From an uncultured Gammaproteobacteria bacterium (GTDB lineage Bacteria > Pseudomonadota > Gammaproteobacteria > Eutrophobiales > Eutrophobiaceae): 64,000 nt of DNA. The notes beneath the pieces were generated by a model, which saw only the letters and a list, made by a program, of their open reading frames with translations, searched no databases and had not been told where the DNA came from. Numbering within the stretch: the first letter of the stretch is position 1; each line of letters begins with the position of its first letter. Shown here piece by piece: positions 35,256 to 45,989 of this stretch. Location of the stretch: positions 496,001 through 560,000 of the forward strand of contig OY282354.1 of assembly GCA_958295485.1 (NCBI GenBank). The letters are read 5' to 3'. The translations under genes and the position numbers were made by a program.

Positions 35256-36335
35256 TCAGATAATGCCATCCAGGATCTTATCTGCTATTTCGGGGGAGAT
35301 TTCATCCCCGGGTTGCAGGTTCTCGTACCGTGCCGCTCTCTCCCAAACCCTGCGCAGGTGCATTAGAATCCGTCTCGGCACCAACGCTGTTTCACGGTCG
35401 AAAATAGTATCAATAGCTTGTTCTGAGAACGGGTAAAACGGTTGAGGTGGAGAAAATCCGTTCTTCGGACGAACAAATTCAAGGTAATCTTTCACAAATA
35501 CCTTAGCCCCGTTTGCCGTAAGCTGTTCACACTGGATATAAGGGCGCGTCATTCTCTCTTGCAAGGCGCTTGGAACTGCCGCTTCCAGAATAGTGGTAGG
35601 CAGGTTGAACGACAATACCAAAGCGAAGCGCTCTGTTACTTCATCAACGAGGCTCCGCAACGCACCGAAGAACGCAATTTGTTGAGGGGCTCTTGATTCG
35701 ACGGCGTTCTCTACTTCGTCCAGAAAAAGGTAAACCGCGCCAAACGGCGGCGGGTTATCTCCGATACGGGCTGTCATTACCCGAAAGAGCGAGGCCATGG
35801 ATTTTACCGCGGAATAGTCATCCGTTGTTGACACGACGTCAATTTGCCCTCGATTATTTAAAGATTTGACCAAAGCCTGGTCTTGCCGGGAAACATGGTT
35901 TTCTATCGCCTTATCAGCTGATACGTTGTGACCATCTGTTTTTTGCATTCGCTCCATGCAATTACGGATGGAATTTTTAACGGTATCGACGAGGCGAGCT
36001 TGTTTATCATCTTGCAGCTGCTCAAGAATTCCCGCGTAGAGGGCGGAAAAACTCAACCCCGCGCCAGTCACGATTTCATTTAGATAGATCGCGTGCCCGA
36101 ATCCTTCCCTGTTTATCTCACGGGTGAAGTAGCGCAAGGCATGCGATTTCCCCGCGCCATAGGCGCCGCTTAGGACAACAAACTCACTGGCGCCAACATC
36201 GTCCGGCCGTACGCTCGCAATAACATCGGCCAGGGCTTTTCTCGTGTCGGGCAACCCCGCCCAACACTTGATTTTACCATTTAGCCCGATGCTGAACGGG
36301 TTTTCTTTCAATCCGAAATTAGCAGGGTTCAACAT
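35256..36335 (-). CDS. AAA-type P-loop ATPase, partner of PLD-like protein
   Basis: A 359-residue ATPase. The N-terminus GLKENPFSIG resembles ExeA/TniB-type AAA proteins. Walker A is LSGAYGAGKSHALRYF (K63) and Walker B is VYLFLDEVENAVE near residue 200. LALVLSFNLPTTI and ERMTRPYIQCEQLTANGAKVFVKDYL resemble sensor and lid regions. The start at 36335 follows a strong AGGAG; the open frame upstream overlaps the preceding gene and is ignored. It begins two bases after the stop of the PLD-like gene, so the pair forms one operon. Function unknown; the pairing suggests an ATP-driven nuclease or DNA-sensing defence module. Confidence 0.75.
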   Translation of the reverse strand: MLNPANFGLKENPFSIGLNGKIKCWAGLPDTRKALADVIASVRPDDVGASEFVVLSGAYGAGKSHALRYFTREINREGFGHAIYLNEIVTGAGLSFSALYAGILEQLQDDKQARLVDTVKNSIRNCMERMQKTDGHNVSADKAIENHVSRQDQALVKSLNNRGQIDVVSTTDDYSAVKSMASLFRVMTARIGDNPPPFGAVYLFLDEVENAVESRAPQQIAFFGALRSLVDEVTERFALVLSFNLPTTILEAAVPSALQERMTRPYIQCEQLTANGAKVFVKDYLEFVRPKNGFSPPQPFYPFSEQAIDTIFDRETALVPRRILMHLRRVWERAARYENLQPGDEISPEIADKILDGII

Positions 36336-36336
36336 G

Positions 36337-36843
36337 TTATATCTCCTGTAAATTGATTTGTCCGATAACTTTCCACTGGGTAAATTCCACCGCGCCAGGC
36401 CCGGAGAGACGATCAAGTTCGACAGCAACAGCAGCAGTATCTGCTTTTTCGCTGAAGAATGCGATTGTCTCATCGTTGCGTTTAAGCCCTCCAACTGTCA
36501 AGTTCGCCGAACCGACAAAAGCGGCCCTGTCGCCTTCGGAAAAGGTAAATTGATAAACTTTGGAGTGCAGCTTGCCCCGAAGAATTAAATCAACGCCCAA
36601 GTTGACAATCAAATCAGCCTCATCCAAATTGATGGTCCCGGATTCCAAGTTTGGGGGGCGTGTGATTAGTTGCAAGCGCTCACATCCTCCGGAAAGCAAA
36701 AAACGACTCAGTTCCACGATTGAACCGAACGACGGGATTTTGCCGATATAGGGCGCCGCCATTCGCAAAGAAAGAGGTCGGCGAGACAGGCATTCCATAA
36801 CCCGTTCCCTGAAGAGCCTTGTATGCAGAATTTCCGGTTTCAT
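36337..36843 (-). CDS. PLD-like (HKD) nuclease domain protein
   Basis: A 168-residue protein with one phospholipase-D-type half-site: GKLHSKVYQF (H93, K95) followed by AAFVGSANLTVGGLKRNDE (GSANLT near 111-116). The Asp normally found four residues after the Lys is absent, as in some nuclease-type PLD proteins. One copy means it would act as a dimer, like BfiI or Nuc nucleases. The start at 36843 is preceded by AAGGAT; an ATG at 36891 is an alternative. The ATPase gene begins two bases downstream. The spacer to the divergent rhomboid gene (203 bp) is AT-rich. Confidence 0.75.
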   Translation of the reverse strand: MKPEILHTRLFRERVMECLSRRPLSLRMAAPYIGKIPSFGSIVELSRFLLSGGCERLQLITRPPNLESGTINLDEADLIVNLGVDLILRGKLHSKVYQFTFSEGDRAAFVGSANLTVGGLKRNDETIAFFSEKADTAAVAVELDRLSGPGAVEFTQWKVIGQINLQEI

Positions 36844-37046
36844 ACTTATTTTAATCCTTATATATCCTGGAACTTGGCGATTCAGCGCCATTTCTTCCCC
36901 AAGGTCGGATTTTAGCGCATCTTTGGTAAAATTTAGAACTAAAAGATTGAAATTAAGTACACTATCTCTGGGACTGCCCCACAGTTTTTGTGGAGAATCT
37001 AAAAAGATTGGCTTTCAACTATCCAAACTGACACCTTCATATTTCG

Positions 37047-38983: not shown

Positions 38984-40012
38984 TCAGGCGGCTTGTTCCA
39001 GCATCTCGGAGTATCGGCCCAGGGAGGCGAGGCTGTTGCACTTTTCCCGGTGCAGGAGCGTCGTTTGGGCAGGCCGGACGTTGTCTGATTTACCCGACCA
39101 GATTTTCAGGCAGGGCTCTTGCAGCGCGCGCCCGTAAGAAAAACTCAAGGGCCAGGGCAGGTTATCATGGCTTTGGTTCATGGCGTTCAGGTGAGCGGTA
39201 GCCAGTTGGGCGCTTTGCCCGCCGGACAGGAACACGATGCCCGGCAGCGCCGCCGGTACGGTATTCAGCAGGCAGCGCACCGTCTTGTCCGCCACTTCCT
39301 GAACGCCCGCCTGTTGCGGACATTGTTTGCCCGATATGACCATGTTCGTTTTAAGGATGGTGTATTCCACTGCCACGGATTGACTGTACAAGGCCTGGAA
39401 GACCGTCTTTAACGTCTTCTCCGTTATCCCGTAACAGGTATCGATGTCGTTGTCCGCATCCATCAGGACTTCCGGTTCGACCATGGGGACAATGCCGGCC
39501 TCCTGGCATAATCCCGCATAGCGGGCAAGGGCGTGGGCATTGGCATCGATGCAGGCGTCAGTCGGTATATGATCGCCGATGGTAATCACGGCGCGCCACT
39601 TGGCGAACCTGGCGCCTAATTCGCGGTACTCGGCAAGCCTCTCCCGCAAGCCATCCAGACCCTCGGTGACTTTTTCACCCGGATGTCCGGCCAGGTCCTT
39701 GGCGCCGGTATCTACCTTGATGCCGGGCATGATCCCCTTCTCGATCATGACCGCCGGGAAGGGGGTTCCATCCCCGGTTTTTTGCCGGATGGTCTCATCA
39801 AACAAAATCATGCCGCTGATAAATTCTTCGCTGCCAGGAGCCGTGATCAACAGTTCGCGGTAGGCCCGCCGGTTTTCTTCGGTTGAGTCGAGGCCGATGG
39901 TATCGAACCGTTTTTTTATGGTGCCAAGACTTTCATCTATGGCCAAAATGCCTTTGCCGCCAGCGACCATCGCCGAGGCTGTTTGCGCCATCCGTTCAGT
40001 AATATCACTCAT
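38984..40012 (-). CDS. fba: Fructose-bisphosphate aldolase, class I
   Basis: A 342-residue class I (Schiff-base) aldolase. Motifs: GGKGILAIDESLGTIKKRF, PFPAVMIEKGIMPGIKVDTG, FAKWRAVITIGDHIPTD, IVPMVEPEVLMDAD, LKTNMVISGKQC and GIVFLSGGQSAQLATAHLNAMN (catalytic Lys in the LKTNMV strand). It splits fructose-1,6-bisphosphate in glycolysis or the Calvin cycle. It is on the same strand as tkt-gap-pgk-pyk, 4.5 kb downstream of pyk, and was probably adjacent before the insertion at 40.6-44.4 kb. About 230 bp of noncoding sequence precedes it. Confidence 0.95.
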   Translation of the reverse strand: MSDITERMAQTASAMVAGGKGILAIDESLGTIKKRFDTIGLDSTEENRRAYRELLITAPGSEEFISGMILFDETIRQKTGDGTPFPAVMIEKGIMPGIKVDTGAKDLAGHPGEKVTEGLDGLRERLAEYRELGARFAKWRAVITIGDHIPTDACIDANAHALARYAGLCQEAGIVPMVEPEVLMDADNDIDTCYGITEKTLKTVFQALYSQSVAVEYTILKTNMVISGKQCPQQAGVQEVADKTVRCLLNTVPAALPGIVFLSGGQSAQLATAHLNAMNQSHDNLPWPLSFSYGRALQEPCLKIWSGKSDNVRPAQTTLLHREKCNSLASLGRYSEMLEQAA

Positions 40013-40243: not shown

Positions 40244-40522
40244 ATGCTCCTGATTGATAAGGGCGAGAGCGGATTTCTTGCTGAATGTCTGATGCAGATT
40301 ACGGAAAAGGTGGAAGGATACGTCGATGAACACGGAAGGGTTTACTTGTATAAGGATCTCCAAGAACAAAATCCGAACATGCGCGCTCGTATGCGTAACT
40401 TTCGGACCAGTGGCATTGTACTGTGTATGGAAAAGGACTGGTTCAAAAAAGGACCGCTCAAGCGGGTATTTGTCGACAGACCACGTGAAGTGTTTATCCG
40501 AGAGTACAGCGTCGCTTATTGA
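40244..40522 (+). CDS. Hypothetical protein, 92 aa
   Basis: A 92-residue basic protein (MLLIDKGESGFLAECLMQITEKVEGY, NMRARMRNFRTSGIVLCMEKDWFKKGPLKR) with no motif I recognise. It lies divergent to fba, inside the region between fba and the pyk remnant. The 80 bases after its stop can be read in another frame as a further polar peptide ending EEPPDS, so a frameshift could have truncated a longer gene. Function unknown; it may be part of the inserted segment. Confidence 0.4.
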   Translation: MLLIDKGESGFLAECLMQITEKVEGYVDEHGRVYLYKDLQEQNPNMRARMRNFRTSGIVLCMEKDWFKKGPLKRVFVDRPREVFIREYSVAY

Positions 40523-40637: not shown

Positions 40638-40748
40638 ATATATGCCGTTCGCTCATTTTTCCCATCTGTATGATTTTCATGTTGCTCGTGCTGCCGAGAT
40701 AACCTTGGCATTGATGTGGTTCGCCGCATACATGGTGGACATGGCATA
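40638..40748 (-). pseudogene. Remnant of the pyk 3' end
   Basis: Two pieces of pyk occur here in order. Bases 40654-40696 match 44565-44607 (the last codons of pyk) and 40710-40746 match 44879-44915 (internal pyk), with about 270 bp deleted between them. In protein terms they correspond to the NNMKIVQ end and the MSTMYAANHI stretch of pyruvate kinase. Identity is clearly lower than between the ppx copies, so this duplication is older. With the intact pyk 3' end it flanks the ParB-nuclease-methyltransferase operon. Bases 40749-40920 hold nothing I recognise. Confidence 0.75.
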
Positions 40749-40920: not shown

Positions 40921-41124
40921 TCAAATCATCTCGAAGTGTCTGAACGCCTCGAAGATCGGTTCGCGCTTCTCACGCGGACAGGGGTGCTTTCTTTCACTGT
41001 CTCGGTTCCAGGCAGTGCCGGGTTCGAGTCCGGCCAGGTCCTTGCAATGAGCAATCCAGCACGTTTTCGGTTTCCAGCCGTATGTTTGCTGAACCCAATC
41101 CTGGATATCCGAATATGTCGCCAC
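40921..41124 (-). CDS. Small conserved-looking protein of the ParB-nuclease-methyltransferase operon
   Basis: A 67-residue protein starting at a GTG (41124) with AAGGAG seven bases upstream. It reads ATYSDIQDWVQQTYGWKPKTCWIAHCKDLAGL, then a polar RDSERKHPCPREKREPIFEAFRHFEMI. I recall small proteins with this Y-x-DIQ-x-WV..K-x-CWIAH...K-x-PCP-x-EKR...A-x-RHF pattern beside DNA modification genes, but no function is known to me. It begins 22 bases after the methyltransferase stop and ends the operon. Two cysteines (in KTCWIAHC) and one in PCP may bind a metal. Confidence 0.7.
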   Translation of the reverse strand: MATYSDIQDWVQQTYGWKPKTCWIAHCKDLAGLEPGTAWNRDSERKHPCPREKREPIFEAFRHFEMI

Positions 41125-41146
41125 CGTAATCTCCTTCGAAATTGAT

Positions 41147-42235
41147 TTACACGGCAAAACAAAAATCGTGCTCTGTAAATGGCGTTCCTTTTGTGCCTCG
41201 GAAAGAGTTTGCTTGTGTATTCGCTATGTCCGATGTAACACCAGGGTCCGCAAGACGGACTTCTCGTCCCAAACCTGATAACAATGATCGGAGCAGTTCG
41301 TTTTTAATTTCCGCTTTTCCAAGCCGGCGGCTTCCGATGCGCACGACAAGTCGCGCTTGATCAGCCAGTAACGGACCAATACCTTCCCAGCATTCCTGAA
41401 GAAATTTCCAGTAATTAATCTTGCTGGTATGACGATCATCATGGCCGGAGTACTGAACAATGGGGGCGCCTCCGAGAAACCACAAACGGAGCCATTGATC
41501 TTCATGATAGTTCGTCGTGTCCAGATACGGCGGTGATGTAATAACGTCCGTGACACAGCCCTTAAGTTCAGGAAAAGCAGTCGTTGCATCTCGCGCATCT
41601 GCTTCTGCTACACATCCGGTTTTTTCAGGGGGATGCGTCTGAAACCGATAAGCGAGCATTCGTTCAAGGATTTCAAACACGTTGCGCCGAGGAGCTACGC
41701 AGTCTTCGCGCCACCACCATTGGACCGAATATTCGGGTTTTGTACTGATCGTCCTCGGCATACGATTGCTGAAGTAATTTGGAGATTTATGTGATTCCCC
41801 ATGCAGGGAACCGAGACACAGTGCAGCGATGAATCGATCATCCTTTCGATGCTTATGGTCCAGGACACATCGCAGGTACCGCACTTGCAGCAATGTTTCA
41901 GGATGAAAGCAGTGTTCGAAAAATTCGCCTAGTGCGCCACCCCAGTCACCATCGTCCGGTTCCGTAAACGCTTTCTGTAATTCGGTAAGACGCACCCTTA
42001 TATCGTGAAGTCCCGGTGGGTCGCACTTGGCGCCGGAAATGCAGGCCGCAACAGGATTTACGTCACAACCCGCGGCTTTCCGGGATTGTAGCAAGGCCTG
42101 AAACACAGTTGTGCCCCGACCACAAAATGGATCAAAAACAAAGCCCTTATGAGAAGTCACTGACAGATGTTTCTCTACGAACGCTTCCGGGAACATCGCA
42201 AAATACGGACAGATCGAGTGAAAACGATGTCTCAC
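41147..42235 (-). CDS. DNA methyltransferase of the four-gene operon
   Basis: A 362-residue DNA methyltransferase. The SAM site VFDPFCGRGTTVFQALLQSRKAAGCDVNP (near 33-61) precedes the catalytic motif VITSPPYLDTTNYHEDQWLRLWF (SPPY near 236). The S-P-P-Y form suggests N4-cytosine or N6-adenine methylation. The start is taken as GTG 42235, whose GTGA overlaps the stop of the preceding gene and gives the conserved RHRFHSICPYFAMFPEAF opening; a longer start at 42295 would overlap more. It sits between the putative nuclease and the small protein. Confidence 0.85.
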   Translation of the reverse strand: MRHRFHSICPYFAMFPEAFVEKHLSVTSHKGFVFDPFCGRGTTVFQALLQSRKAAGCDVNPVAACISGAKCDPPGLHDIRVRLTELQKAFTEPDDGDWGGALGEFFEHCFHPETLLQVRYLRCVLDHKHRKDDRFIAALCLGSLHGESHKSPNYFSNRMPRTISTKPEYSVQWWWREDCVAPRRNVFEILERMLAYRFQTHPPEKTGCVAEADARDATTAFPELKGCVTDVITSPPYLDTTNYHEDQWLRLWFLGGAPIVQYSGHDDRHTSKINYWKFLQECWEGIGPLLADQARLVVRIGSRRLGKAEIKNELLRSLLSGLGREVRLADPGVTSDIANTQANSFRGTKGTPFTEHDFCFAV

Positions 42236-43233
42236 GCCGGTACTGCCTTTAATCGGTAATCCGCGATCCACTGAACAGCCTCGTCTAATCGGCAATAGAC
42301 ATCAATCCTGGTGGTTGCCGACTCGAATTTGGAGGCTTCCTGCACTCTACGGGGAACACGCAGCCGGTGCAGCATATTGCCCATACCTCGCACATCGTTC
42401 CTGAGTTCATCGTCTGAAAGGGCAAACGGAACGATCATATAGGGTATGAAGTCCGTCGCAGGTTGAGATCCAAACCACCTTTTCCGAAAAGCATCAAGAT
42501 GCCCCTTGAGGGATTTATCTCGCCAACCCTGACCTGTTGCCACTTGGGCGGCCGCCAGCAAAAACCCTGGCAGTCGATCAAGGTGGGGACGTGCGGCAAA
42601 AACATCTATTTTATCGTCCTTTGGTTGTAGGGGCGCCCCCGGCTGCGCTTCAACACGTCCATCCCGGATTTCCGTCCATATTTCTTTCAGTTTATCCAGG
42701 AATCCTGAGCGATCCGGTCTCGGAAATCCAAACGACCAGGACCGACCACCGATTTCCGCAGCCATAGCTGCGGTTGCAAAGTATTGGAAATACGTTCGCA
42801 GTTTGTTGATTTCAGCGTCTTTTGGATATACGGAAGAACCTGTCAGTACCGGGGTCATTGCTGTTAGATTCGATAGTATGAGACACAGGATATAGGCCGT
42901 CTGTCCAAACGAATAATTACTATCCCAGGCATACTCCAGAATATTGCCTGTATCATCTAATTTATAAGGATAGACCTTTTCCAGCGCCCGCCCGCGAGAC
43001 TCGATAAGATTGACTGTTCCTGATACAACCTCCTCACTACCCATAAGGTTTTCGTCATTCATGTCCACGTGGTCTTCCGATGCGCCTATATCAATTGTAT
43101 TCTTGATTTCCAATACAGGCGCGGACTTTGTTTCAGCAAAGAAAGCTGACAATTCCAGGAAGTCCGCCGCCAAGTTGAAATCGATTGCACCGCCGGTTAT
43201 CGAATCAGGGGGAAGATAGAGGGCAACCGTCAT
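42232..43233 (-). CDS. Putative PD-(D/E)xK-like nuclease
   Basis: A 333-residue protein I cannot assign to a named family. Residues 207-241 show DKIDVFA...PGFLLAAAQVATGQGWRDKS. This has the spacing of a PD-(D/E)xK nuclease active site with Gln in place of the second acid (D210, Q230, K240), a variant known in restriction enzymes. The N-terminal half has LEIKNTIDIG and a helical middle. It starts within the ParB-like stop (four-base overlap) and ends in the GTGA overlap with the methyltransferase. Position between a ParB-like protein and a methyltransferase supports a restriction role. The catalytic call is inference. Confidence 0.55.
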   Translation of the reverse strand: MTVALYLPPDSITGGAIDFNLAADFLELSAFFAETKSAPVLEIKNTIDIGASEDHVDMNDENLMGSEEVVSGTVNLIESRGRALEKVYPYKLDDTGNILEYAWDSNYSFGQTAYILCLILSNLTAMTPVLTGSSVYPKDAEINKLRTYFQYFATAAMAAEIGGRSWSFGFPRPDRSGFLDKLKEIWTEIRDGRVEAQPGAPLQPKDDKIDVFAARPHLDRLPGFLLAAAQVATGQGWRDKSLKGHLDAFRKRWFGSQPATDFIPYMIVPFALSDDELRNDVRGMGNMLHRLRVPRRVQEASKFESATTRIDVYCRLDEAVQWIADYRLKAVPA

Positions 43234-44390
43234 TTTTCACCACCTGCTTCACGGTACTTTCTCTCCATCCTCTGATAAATAGTCGCTGCGGTTTCCTTGA
43301 TGTCCTCCGCAATATTCAGCAGCGCTTTGTCCTTCCCATCATATGCTCTCAGCGAGGCTGAAGCGTTTCGGGCTTCGTCCCGCGCACGGACCAGCGAGGT
43401 TGTGAAGCGTTGGTCTGCGAGTTGAGTGCTTTCATGGGCTTTGTCGAGATCGCTTGTCGTTTCAAGAACATGAAGCGCCTCCGTGTTGGCGAGCACCTCT
43501 CCGAGGCGTTTGATATCAGGGTTTTGCGACCGAACCATCGGTTTTGAAGCTTCCATTTTGGAACCGTAAATCCACTCAAGAACCTGCTTAAGCCGGTCCA
43601 GCTGATCGTGCGGCACCGGGTCGGGCTTTGGGTCGTAACTAACCCAGGAAGCATCAATGCCCAGATAACTCATGTACTGCGAGCGGGAAAGCGCGGTATA
43701 GAGATGAGAGAAATTGAACTTTTTCGTGGCCCGGTCATCAAGGTCAAACTTGCCCTTATTTTCGGCTTGTTCAAGAACATAGAGCGCTGACACCATTCGC
43801 TTTACGGTGTCATGCCGGTCACCAATGGCTCTTGCGATGTCTTCCAGTGTGACCCCTTTATCTCGTTCCCTCTTGTACCAATCCGCCGCGAATCTCGCCT
43901 TGGCATACGAGTCCCATTTTGCCGCACCGTTGATGTGCTTGAAACCAATGAACGAACGTGCCTCTTCGCGGGTGGCGACACTGTAGACGGAAACTTCGTT
44001 AAAGGACGATCGCCGGGCATCATTCACCTGCGGAACCTGGATTCGCAATTTTTCCGCTTGCTCGATCCGATGGCTCAAGGCCTTTTCACGCAACAGCCGG
44101 AGGGCAGCGAGTCGTCGGTTCCCTTCCAGCACGATCAAGCTGGCGCTGTCTTCTTGGGAGGGCATGACAATAAGCGGCTCAATGTCGAGATACCCATTCG
44201 TCGAAATTGACTGCAGCAATTCGTCCAGTTCAGCGGAGCGGTAAAGTTGCGCAATAATAGCCTCATCGGACGTCTTGGCATCCTGCCCGAGCAACCGTGG
44301 ATTATGCTGATCAAACCGAAGTTCTTCAACCGACGCCTTTGTGGTCGAGTGAGATGTTCTAGGTGAAGCTCTTTTATTTTGTGCGGTCAT
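43230..44390 (-). CDS. ParB/Srx-like domain protein
   Basis: A 386-residue protein. VEELRFDQHNPRLLGQ, IAQLYRSAELDELLQSISTNGYLDIEPLIVMP and LIVLEGNRRLAALRLL (EGNRR at 89-93) are the ParB/sulfiredoxin nucleotide-binding domain. A helix-turn-helix-like segment follows (VTLEDIARAIGDRHDTVKRMVSAL, about 175-198) and a long coiled-coil C-terminus (about 310-385). It is first in the four-gene operon. In DNA-modification systems such domains act as NTPase or DNA-binding regulators. The 165 bp between it and the pyk stop must contain the promoter; it is AT-rich. Confidence 0.85.
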   Translation of the reverse strand: MTAQNKRASPRTSHSTTKASVEELRFDQHNPRLLGQDAKTSDEAIIAQLYRSAELDELLQSISTNGYLDIEPLIVMPSQEDSASLIVLEGNRRLAALRLLREKALSHRIEQAEKLRIQVPQVNDARRSSFNEVSVYSVATREEARSFIGFKHINGAAKWDSYAKARFAADWYKRERDKGVTLEDIARAIGDRHDTVKRMVSALYVLEQAENKGKFDLDDRATKKFNFSHLYTALSRSQYMSYLGIDASWVSYDPKPDPVPHDQLDRLKQVLEWIYGSKMEASKPMVRSQNPDIKRLGEVLANTEALHVLETTSDLDKAHESTQLADQRFTTSLVRARDEARNASASLRAYDGKDKALLNIAEDIKETAATIYQRMERKYREAGGEK

Positions 44391-44555: not shown

Positions 44556-45989
44556 CTACTCAGTTGTTTTCCCTACCTGTACGATTTTCATGTTGTTCGT
44601 GCCGCCGCGGCGTCCCCTGAGATCGCCTTTTGTGATCAGGACGATATCGCCCTCGGTGACCAGTTTCAACCTGACTAAATTGGCGACGATTTCCTGGTTG
44701 ACTTTCATCGGGTCCGTGTGGGTTACGTCGAAATGAATGGGATATACATCCCGGTATAACCGCACTTTACGCATGGTTGAAGCGTGACGGGTGAATGCCA
44801 TGATGGGAATGCCGGAACTGATCCGCGACATCCACAGGCAGGTTGAGCCGGTTTCCGTCAAGGCGGCGATGGCCCTGGCCTCGATGTGGTTGGCCGCATA
44901 CATGGTGGACATGGCGATAGCCTCATCAATGCGTTTGAATTCCTGGTTGATACGATGGTCTGAGCGCCTGGTTTCTTCTTGTTTTTCAGTCTCCTCACAG
45001 ATTCGGGCCATGGCCCGGACAACCTGGTCCGGGAATAAACCGATACTTGTCTCCCCGGACAGCATGACGGCGTCCGAGCCATCCAGAACGGCATTGGCCA
45101 CGTCGAATACTTCCGCCCGGGTGGGTATTTGACTATCAATCATGGACTCCATCATCTGGGTGGCGGTGATCACCGCGCGGTCCAGGGCCATAGCTTGTTT
45201 GATCAGTTTTTTCTGTACCGGCGGCAGGGATGCATCGCCGATCTCAACGCCCAAGTCACCGCGGGCGATCATGATGGCGTCGGACGCCTCGATGATGGCC
45301 CCGGCGTTTTCCAATGCCTCTACCCGCTCGAGTTTCGCTATGATCCCGGCATTTGAACCTGCTTTATCCAATAATGAACGGGCCTGGTGAATGTCGGCGG
45401 CCGCGCTGACAAAAGAAACAGCAAAATAATCAGCGCCGATTTCAACGCCGTGCAGCAGGTCTTTGCGATCCTTTTTTGTCAATGTCCCCGCAGAAAGGCC
45501 GCCGCCTTTCAGGTTGATGCCTTTATTGTTGGATAGTTTTCCGCCGACTAATACCTTGCATCGTACCTTTGTCTTTACTACGCCGGTGACTTCGAGGGCG
45601 ATGCGTCCGTCGTCCACAAGGAGTGTATTCCCCGGTTTAACGTCCTTGCTCAGTTCCCGGTAGGTGACGCCGACTTCCCGCTCGTTGCCGGCATCATCAG
45701 GCAAAGCGGGATCGAGGGTGAAATCGGCCCCCTCCCGCAGGAGAATTTTGCCATTCTCAAAACGTTGGAGCCTGATCTTGGGACCCTGTAAATCTGCGAT
45801 AATGCCGACTTCAGTCCCCCTTTTTTTAGTGATAGCCAATATAGCCTGAACCCGTTCCTTATGTTCGAGATGGGTCTGGTGGGAATAATTTATTCGGAAC
45901 AAATCCACGCCGGCTTCAACCAGTTTTTCCATCATCCCCGGTTTATCGGTGGCGGGGCCTAATGTTGCAATAATTTTTGTTCTACGCAT
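44556..45989 (-). CDS. pyk: Pyruvate kinase
   Basis: A 477-residue pyruvate kinase. [37 protein letters not shown] opens the barrel; IIADLQGPKIRL, VSAAADIHQARSLL, IIAKLERVEALENAGAIIEASDAIMIARGDLGVEIGDASLPPVQKKLI (catalytic region) and AVMLSGETSIGLFPDQVV follow. The C-terminal effector domain ends in a GRRGGTNNMKIVQ tail. It overlaps pgk by eight bases. Part of its 3' end is duplicated at 40638-40748, on the far side of the ParB operon. Confidence 0.97.
   Translation of the reverse strand: MRRTKIIATLGPATDKPGMMEKLVEAGVDLFRINYSHQTHLEHKERVQAILAITKKRGTEVGIIADLQGPKIRLQRFENGKILLREGADFTLDPALPDDAGNEREVGVTYRELSKDVKPGNTLLVDDGRIALEVTGVVKTKVRCKVLVGGKLSNNKGINLKGGGLSAGTLTKKDRKDLLHGVEIGADYFAVSFVSAAADIHQARSLLDKAGSNAGIIAKLERVEALENAGAIIEASDAIMIARGDLGVEIGDASLPPVQKKLIKQAMALDRAVITATQMMESMIDSQIPTRAEVFDVANAVLDGSDAVMLSGETSIGLFPDQVVRAMARICEETEKQEETRRSDHRINQEFKRIDEAIAMSTMYAANHIEARAIAALTETGSTCLWMSRISSGIPIMAFTRHASTMRKVRLYRDVYPIHFDVTHTDPMKVNQEIVANLVRLKLVTEGDIVLITKGDLRGRRGGTNNMKIVQVGKTTE

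Follow-up and report, generated by a model that had tools for sequence, protein, structure and literature searches.

We analysed a window of 64,000 nucleotides (positions 496,001 to 560,000 of the forward strand of contig OY282354.1, assembly GCA_958295485.1) from an uncultured gammaproteobacterium of the family Eutrophobiaceae. The subject of this study is an operon on the minus strand of this window, which encodes a ParB-like protein, a nuclease-like protein, a DNA methyltransferase and a small protein, at the following window positions:

44390-43230, minus strand: ParB-like gene, open reading frame (ORF) of 386 amino acids, first gene of the operon
43233-42232, minus strand: nuclease-like gene, ORF of 333 amino acids
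42235-41147, minus strand: methyltransferase gene, 362 amino acids, GTG start
41124-40921, minus strand: small ORF, 67 amino acids, GTG start

A first-pass annotation, made from the sequence alone, had described four genes on one strand, and all four frames are indeed open. The ParB-like and nuclease-like genes overlap by 4 bases (ATGA), as do the nuclease-like and methyltransferase genes (GTGA), and a gap of 22 bases leads to the small ORF, whose GTG is preceded by AAGGAG. The same annotation had suggested restriction-modification. Our analysis sharpens this suggestion: three of the genes form a module that is apparently an undescribed, widespread restriction core of ParB and nuclease whose methyltransferase is exchangeable, sister to the phage-defence system PD-λ-5.

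Related loci were collected by a search with an alignment of four ParB sequences, from which 80 of 337 bacterial and 80 of 102 viral confirmed relatives were taken. Profiles of the second protein were run over all ORFs of all loci, and the pairing counts refer to the 155 loci, chosen through ParB, in which both genes were read. The ParB-like and nuclease-like genes are adjacent and on the same strand in 155 of 155 loci, the nuclease-like gene following directly after the ParB-like gene; their median overlap is 4 bp. A methyltransferase gene lies within 2.5 kb in 147 of the 155 (median gap -3 bp); of the 8 loci without one, most reach a contig end. Because this set had been picked via ParB, an independent search was performed with the nuclease profile over about 780 genomes, drawn from the phylum of the window and from another class. 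It returned 8 genomes besides the window's, a prevalence of roughly 1% in these samples; in all 8 the ParB-like gene is found directly upstream and a methyltransferase gene alongside (4 D12, 2 PF01555-type and 2 C5 enzymes). This arrangement is far from chance, and the conserved module consists of three genes, ParB-like, nuclease-like and methyltransferase.

The four-component system that had been proposed does not survive this comparison. The gene for the 67-residue protein was found in none of the other module loci and in no other genome among 274 of the class, while homologues are present on 105 plasmids; the six loci inspected (L192-L197) show unrelated surroundings, for instance among Enterococcus resistance genes. 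The protein was therefore rejected as a fourth component, and is an independent mobile cargo, a hitchhiker. Tabulating co-occurrence thus upholds the families expected to go together, except for the small gene. The ParB-like and the small protein had both been regarded as unusual parts: the latter is indeed foreign to the module, whereas the former is the invariant partner of the nuclease, the interchangeable part being the methyltransferase. The small protein belongs to phrog_27283, a family with a TCWIAH motif that recurs on plasmids of Gram-positive and Gram-negative bacteria and is often unannotated.

The module is distributed over at least 12 bacterial phyla, phages, many prophages and plasmids. 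It is carried by P2-like phages and is common in P2-like prophages, and among 5,426 complete E. coli genomes a Wphi-like or 12474III-like copy occurs in 139. The C5 version is complete in prophage Wphi of E. coli W, a strain described in the literature as 'restriction minus' (PMC3032704). Several copies, that of the window included, are chromosomal without surrounding phage genes.

The window methyltransferase matches PF01555 (8.8e-13) and the PADLOC profile MTase_II (5.5e-26), and two motifs were read in its sequence, motif I preceding motif IV:

42107-42136, minus strand: FDPFCGRGTT
41525-41539, minus strand: TSPPY

Judged from these matches and motifs, it is a DNA amino-methyltransferase (N4-cytosine or N6-adenine) of PF01555 type. 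Across the module, the methyltransferase (METHYLTRANSFERASE) is swapped, with three unrelated, Pfam-confirmed classes: the SPPY-type enzymes (PF01555), the D12 adenine enzymes (PF02086) and the C5-cytosine enzymes (PF00145). Among 108 non-redundant loci, 48 carry a D12, 32 a PF01555-type and 28 a C5 enzyme. The PF01555-type gene is always downstream on the same strand; D12 genes are placed downstream and convergent, downstream on the same strand, or upstream; and C5 genes are usually convergent. On the ParB tree (a quick tree without bootstrap), at least 8 changes of methyltransferase class are required overall, of which at least 5 for D12 are forced by well-supported branches. The C5 group forms one side of a single branch (Shimodaira-Hasegawa-like approximate likelihood ratio test 97), while D12 and PF01555-type enzymes alternate. 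In the pair L017 (D12) and L011 (PF01555-type), ParB is 70% and the nuclease 65% identical although the methyltransferases are unrelated; over this pair and L016/L012, which also spans a class change, identity is 67-70% for ParB and 61-65% for the nuclease. Since the ParB-nuclease pair is kept while the methyltransferase class changes, the pair would constitute the restriction half, and the marking of self would fall to the exchangeable methyltransferase.

Some of the D12 loci connect the module to PD-λ-5, which has been experimentally validated and defends E. coli against many phages; its authors interpreted it as a compact restriction-modification plus abortive infection (RM+Abi) system (Vassallo et al. 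2022; PMC9519451). The D12 enzyme of L016 and that of L017 are located 1.5 kb past the nuclease, beside a PD-λ-5_A gene. In all, 11 loci (L016, L017, L054, L064, L069, L071, L072, L073, L082, L084 and L085) combine a PD-Lambda-5_A-like gene with a ParB-nuclease pair, both placed around one shared D12 methyltransferase, and the 6 that were checked by profile are all PD-Lambda-5_A. Because one D12 methyltransferase is shared in these loci, the ParB-nuclease pair and PD-λ-5_A look like sister effectors using one D12 mark.

Although the module is widespread, its nuclease-like protein has no family match in Pfam, NCBIfam or PADLOC (of 2023), and Pfam has no family for any of 93 nuclease-like members. 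The only family match is phrog_14650 (9e-25), a phage cluster of function unknown. Searches of PDB sequences gave no match for the single proteins nor for the nuclease profile; tblastn of the nuclease against phages gave none at 1e-5, despite the existence of distant phage homologues; and degenerate-pattern scans from the single nuclease sequence gave none either, the ParB alignment succeeding instead. The D-x(19)-Q-x(9)-K motif that had been pointed out in this protein is present:

42514..42606, minus strand: segment with the putative catalytic residues D210-x19-Q230-x9-K240; D and Q are the same in all 107 members

Of these 107 sequences, 91 have the lysine at position 240 and 15 have it at 232; one has a lysine at both positions, and none lacks it at both. 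A lysine at 232 makes a classical Q-x-K. The relocation between the two positions needs as few as two changes on the tree, so that a Fisher value for this pattern does not stand for a probability of independent events. One lysine is always present near D and Q, as would be predicted for a migrated catalytic lysine. The AlphaFold2 model of the protein is confident (predicted local distance difference test (pLDDT) 93.8, predicted template-modelling score 0.93). In this model, D210 adjoins strand 211-215 and Q230 lies inside strand 225-231, as expected of a D…(E/Q)…K active site on a core β-sheet. D…Q plus the lysine thus bears the signature of a PD-(D/E)XK active site, with which the protein would cleave DNA. 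Restriction-type nucleases lead the fold matches obtained with Foldseek, each being individually weak: MspJI ranks first (E 2.6e-3, probability 0.97, template-modelling score 0.25), followed by Can2, AspBHI, Ecl18kI and Mrr-like proteins. Outside the D/Q/K motif, residues D24, E27, R80, Y114 and R290 are also invariant; they may serve a second conserved function, perhaps a ParB interface or a sensing site.

The ParB-like protein is composed of an N-terminal ParB/Srx domain, a helix-turn-helix (HTH) and a long helical C-terminus (NTPase fold). Its AlphaFold2 model (pLDDT 91.9) has solved ParB (nucleotide structures), KorB and Noc as best Foldseek matches (E 5e-6), and its sequence matches phrog_3694 (1e-86). 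Two features were located:

44103..44126, minus strand: P-motif EGNRRLAA, residues 89-96, from the alignment
43758..43847, minus strand: HTH region, residues 182-211, two helices in the AlphaFold2 model, with likeness to the ParB HTH read from the sequence

Fold matches and alignment together reveal a ParB N-terminal fold with a GxxR P-motif, in which E89, G90, N91, R92 and R93 are invariant in 78 sequences. The GxxR arginine is required for nucleoside triphosphate (NTP) binding in ParB-fold proteins (PMC12704722). A canonical partition ParB (ParABS) was considered and rejected, as no parA is found in the operon and both general profiles score under their cut-offs: TIGR00180 matches at 3e-5 with a score of 23.9 against 58.45, and ParB_N (PF02195) at E 0.02 with 15.3 against 26.3. 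At E 0.001, the genome has a single PF02195 match, which falls in a different gene, about 18 kb beyond the window.

The invariant ParB-nuclease pairing, the exchange of methyltransferases, the conservation of D/Q/K, the restriction-type fold matches and the carriage by P2-like phages lead us to conclude that the operon probably harbours a mobile, ParB-assisted restriction-modification module that would act in defence. The 11 loci sharing a D12 methyltransferase with PD-Lambda-5_A support the same conclusion, PD-λ-5 being a validated defence system (PMC9519451). In the mechanism we propose, the methyltransferase would mark the recognition site in the host chromosome and thereby protect it. The ParB-like protein, with its HTH and NTP-binding ParB fold, would find unmarked DNA, or load and clamp onto it, in an NTP-dependent manner, and would then recruit or license its partner PD-(D/E)XK nuclease, which would cut. 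Such licensing is suggested by the invariant pairing and the predicted folds. We hold more tentatively, as possible yet doubtful, that surveillance of the DNA falls to an NTP-dependent ParB clamp serving its own nuclease, instead of to a helicase or a self-contained endonuclease, and that this core can be re-coupled to C5-cytosine, N6-adenine and probably N4-cytosine methyltransferases, which would make it an undescribed restriction class. The module would link the field of ParB cytidine triphosphatase (CTPase) clamps with restriction biology. Some observations weigh against a restriction-modification module. No single Foldseek match of the nuclease-like model reaches E 0.001. In three loci, all on metagenome-assembled contigs (L015, L018 and L034), an intact ParB-nuclease pair stands beside a truncated PF01555-type methyltransferase, which fits poorly with a nuclease that is unconditionally lethal unless another methyltransferase protects the cell or the contigs are chimeric. 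Finally, a single core serving three kinds of mark gives no account of how sites are recognised, and raises the question of how one restriction core recognises self after its methyltransferase has been replaced by an unrelated one.

The truncated methyltransferases would be accounted for if the pair were silent in healthy cells even without a methyltransferase, and if a phage signal, or the loss or inhibition of methylation, unleashed it to kill the infected cell. Such a guard or abortive-infection mechanism, the main rival explanation, also agrees with the D12 methyltransferase shared with PD-Lambda-5_A, with the RM+Abi reading of PD-λ-5 (PMC9519451) and with the large conserved regions of the nuclease outside its catalytic core, to which D24, E27, R80, Y114 and R290 belong. 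We nevertheless consider it unlikely, as the methyltransferase is kept in 147 of 155 loci and has repeatedly been replaced rather than lost, which is expected if the nuclease reads methylation directly.

The invariance of the pair also bears on the role of the ParB-like protein. This protein could act solely in transcriptional control, as a C protein or KorB does, within an ordinary Type II restriction-modification system, given its HTH, the repressor KorB among its closest solved folds and the first position of its gene in the operon. An auxiliary controller is however expected to be lost sometimes, whereas the ParB-like gene is never lost in the 155 loci and always adjoins the nuclease-like gene, even though D12 and C5 methyltransferase genes are often convergent or upstream; we therefore regard this explanation as improbable. 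The identity of the top structural neighbour raises another alternative. MspJI is a modification-dependent enzyme, and its catalytic site contains a Q; the nuclease might likewise be Type IV-like and attack foreign methylation, the methyltransferase being functionally unrelated. An obligatory self-methyltransferase would then be suicidal unless the sites differ, and three methyltransferase classes are used, so that we judge this very improbable. Least credible of all is a prophage maintenance or anti-restriction unit, in which the methyltransferase shields phage DNA and the pair is an addiction module or serves competition between phages: it agrees with the frequency of the module in P2-like prophages, but not with the chromosomal copies that have no phage genes nearby, among them that of the window. 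We thus retain the ParB-assisted restriction-modification module as our reading of the operon.

The operon had also been interpreted as a mobile cassette inserted in a central metabolic operon, and its surroundings support this. The relevant features are:

44556-45989, minus strand: pyk, upstream flank, intact
38984-40012, minus strand: class I fructose-bisphosphate aldolase gene (fba), downstream flank, intact
40703-40745, minus strand: decayed pyk fragment, pyk nucleotides 1075-1117, 91% identity over 43 nucleotides, E 3e-12
40657-40696, minus strand: decayed pyk fragment, pyk nucleotides 1383-1423, 88% identity over 41 nucleotides, E 2e-8

With pgk, gap and tkt further upstream, the cassette lies within a glycolytic/Calvin-type gene cluster. 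The pyk-fba spacing is 4.5 kb in the window, against 51-555 bp, free of the cassette, in five relatives from its genus or family. The two pyk fragments, from the 3' end of the gene and with about 265 nucleotides of pyk missing between them, are found between the cassette and fba, on the far side from the intact pyk. Given the cassette-free junctions of the relatives and these fragments, the cassette is most simply explained as a lineage-specific insertion between pyk and fba, and the fragments suggest that it came with, or beside, a second copy of the pyk end. The guanine-cytosine content shows a weak dip only, without a clear island border; promoter and terminator scans gave numbers at chance level, and an Rfam search gave no match.

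The pyk-fba junction is variable within the genus: a small gene of SnoaL/NTF2-like type (fold named by eye) occupies it in 2 of the 3 relatives L187-L189, and the cassette is in none of them. Between the cassette and fba, a 92-residue ORF at 40244-40522 on the plus strand, running counter to the operon, has no Pfam match. Beyond the aldolase gene, at 35256-36891 on the minus strand, there is a second defence-like pair. One member has an NgoFVII-type phospholipase D (PLD) restriction endonuclease domain (PF09565, 3.5e-7), and the other is an AAA ATPase that weakly resembles BrxC/D; their frames overlap by about 150 bp, and one start is therefore uncertain.

We compared the module with known defence systems. 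As regards Type I, Type III and ISP restriction systems, no helicase domain was found in any of the four proteins with Pfam, PADLOC or NCBIfam. ParB-superfamily domains occur in defence linked to DNA modification, in GmrSD, the ParB/HNH Type IV enzymes, DndB and DpdB (PMC12373910, PMC12839542, PMC10853773), which have other ParB subfamilies and other nucleases (HNH); no DUF262 or HNH/DUF1524 Pfam match, and no recognised dnd or dpd gene, is present in the window operon. With Type II restriction-modification, the module shares a methyltransferase gene linked to a PD-(D/E)XK nuclease gene (147 of 155 loci, and 8 of 8 in the nuclease-first search). It differs by its invariably linked ParB-fold partner (155 of 155) and by the use of three unrelated methyltransferase classes with one core. 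The same ParB-nuclease pair stands beside a DNA cytosine methyltransferase in the gp98-gp96-Mth genes of phage Wphi and in other P2-like trios (AY135739, NC_049457, BK061475). In contrast to the window, their methyltransferase is of the C5 class and convergent, and their annotation names no more than unknown or ParB-domain proteins and a methylase. The open literature searched yielded no description of the ParB-nuclease-methyltransferase trio (most subscription papers and all bioRxiv preprints lie outside it, and a recent description may be missed).

Two PADLOC entries come closer. PDC-M38A, of the phage-defence candidate PDC-M38, matches the window ParB over residues 52-361 (E 2.7e-21), but the remainder of its 715-position profile matches nothing in the window operon; the composition of the PDC-M38 system was not found in the literature searched. 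The ParB domain of PD-Lambda-5_A, and that domain only, aligns to window ParB residues ~14-190 (E 3.5e-25), the D12 enzymes of the module match PD-Lambda-5_B (E 7e-95), and both systems pair the ParB-domain protein with a DNA methyltransferase and are carried in prophages. The differences are equally clear. In true PD-Lambda-5_A members the profile match extends far into the C-terminal region, in several from end to end, whereas it stops near residue 190 in the window ParB. PD-λ-5 has no separate nuclease gene, and its ParB domain is joined to a different C-terminal region. Its authentic pair in Marinobacter phage AS1 comprises an A protein of 486 amino acids and a D12 methyltransferase, and the nuclease profile does not match the C-terminus of this A protein, so that PD-λ-5_A was rejected as a ParB-nuclease fusion. 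The window methyltransferase is of PF01555 type, the D12 enzyme being present in the D12 branch of the family. As neither defining protein, A or B, is present, the window module was not accepted as a member of PD-λ-5. The combination had not been recognised as a named system; indeed, neither PADLOC, Pfam and NCBIfam nor the literature searched names it, but it has in PD-λ-5 a relative with which it shares two modules. The ParB-nuclease-methyltransferase module is thus a likely evolutionary neighbour of a validated, mechanistically unexplained defence system.

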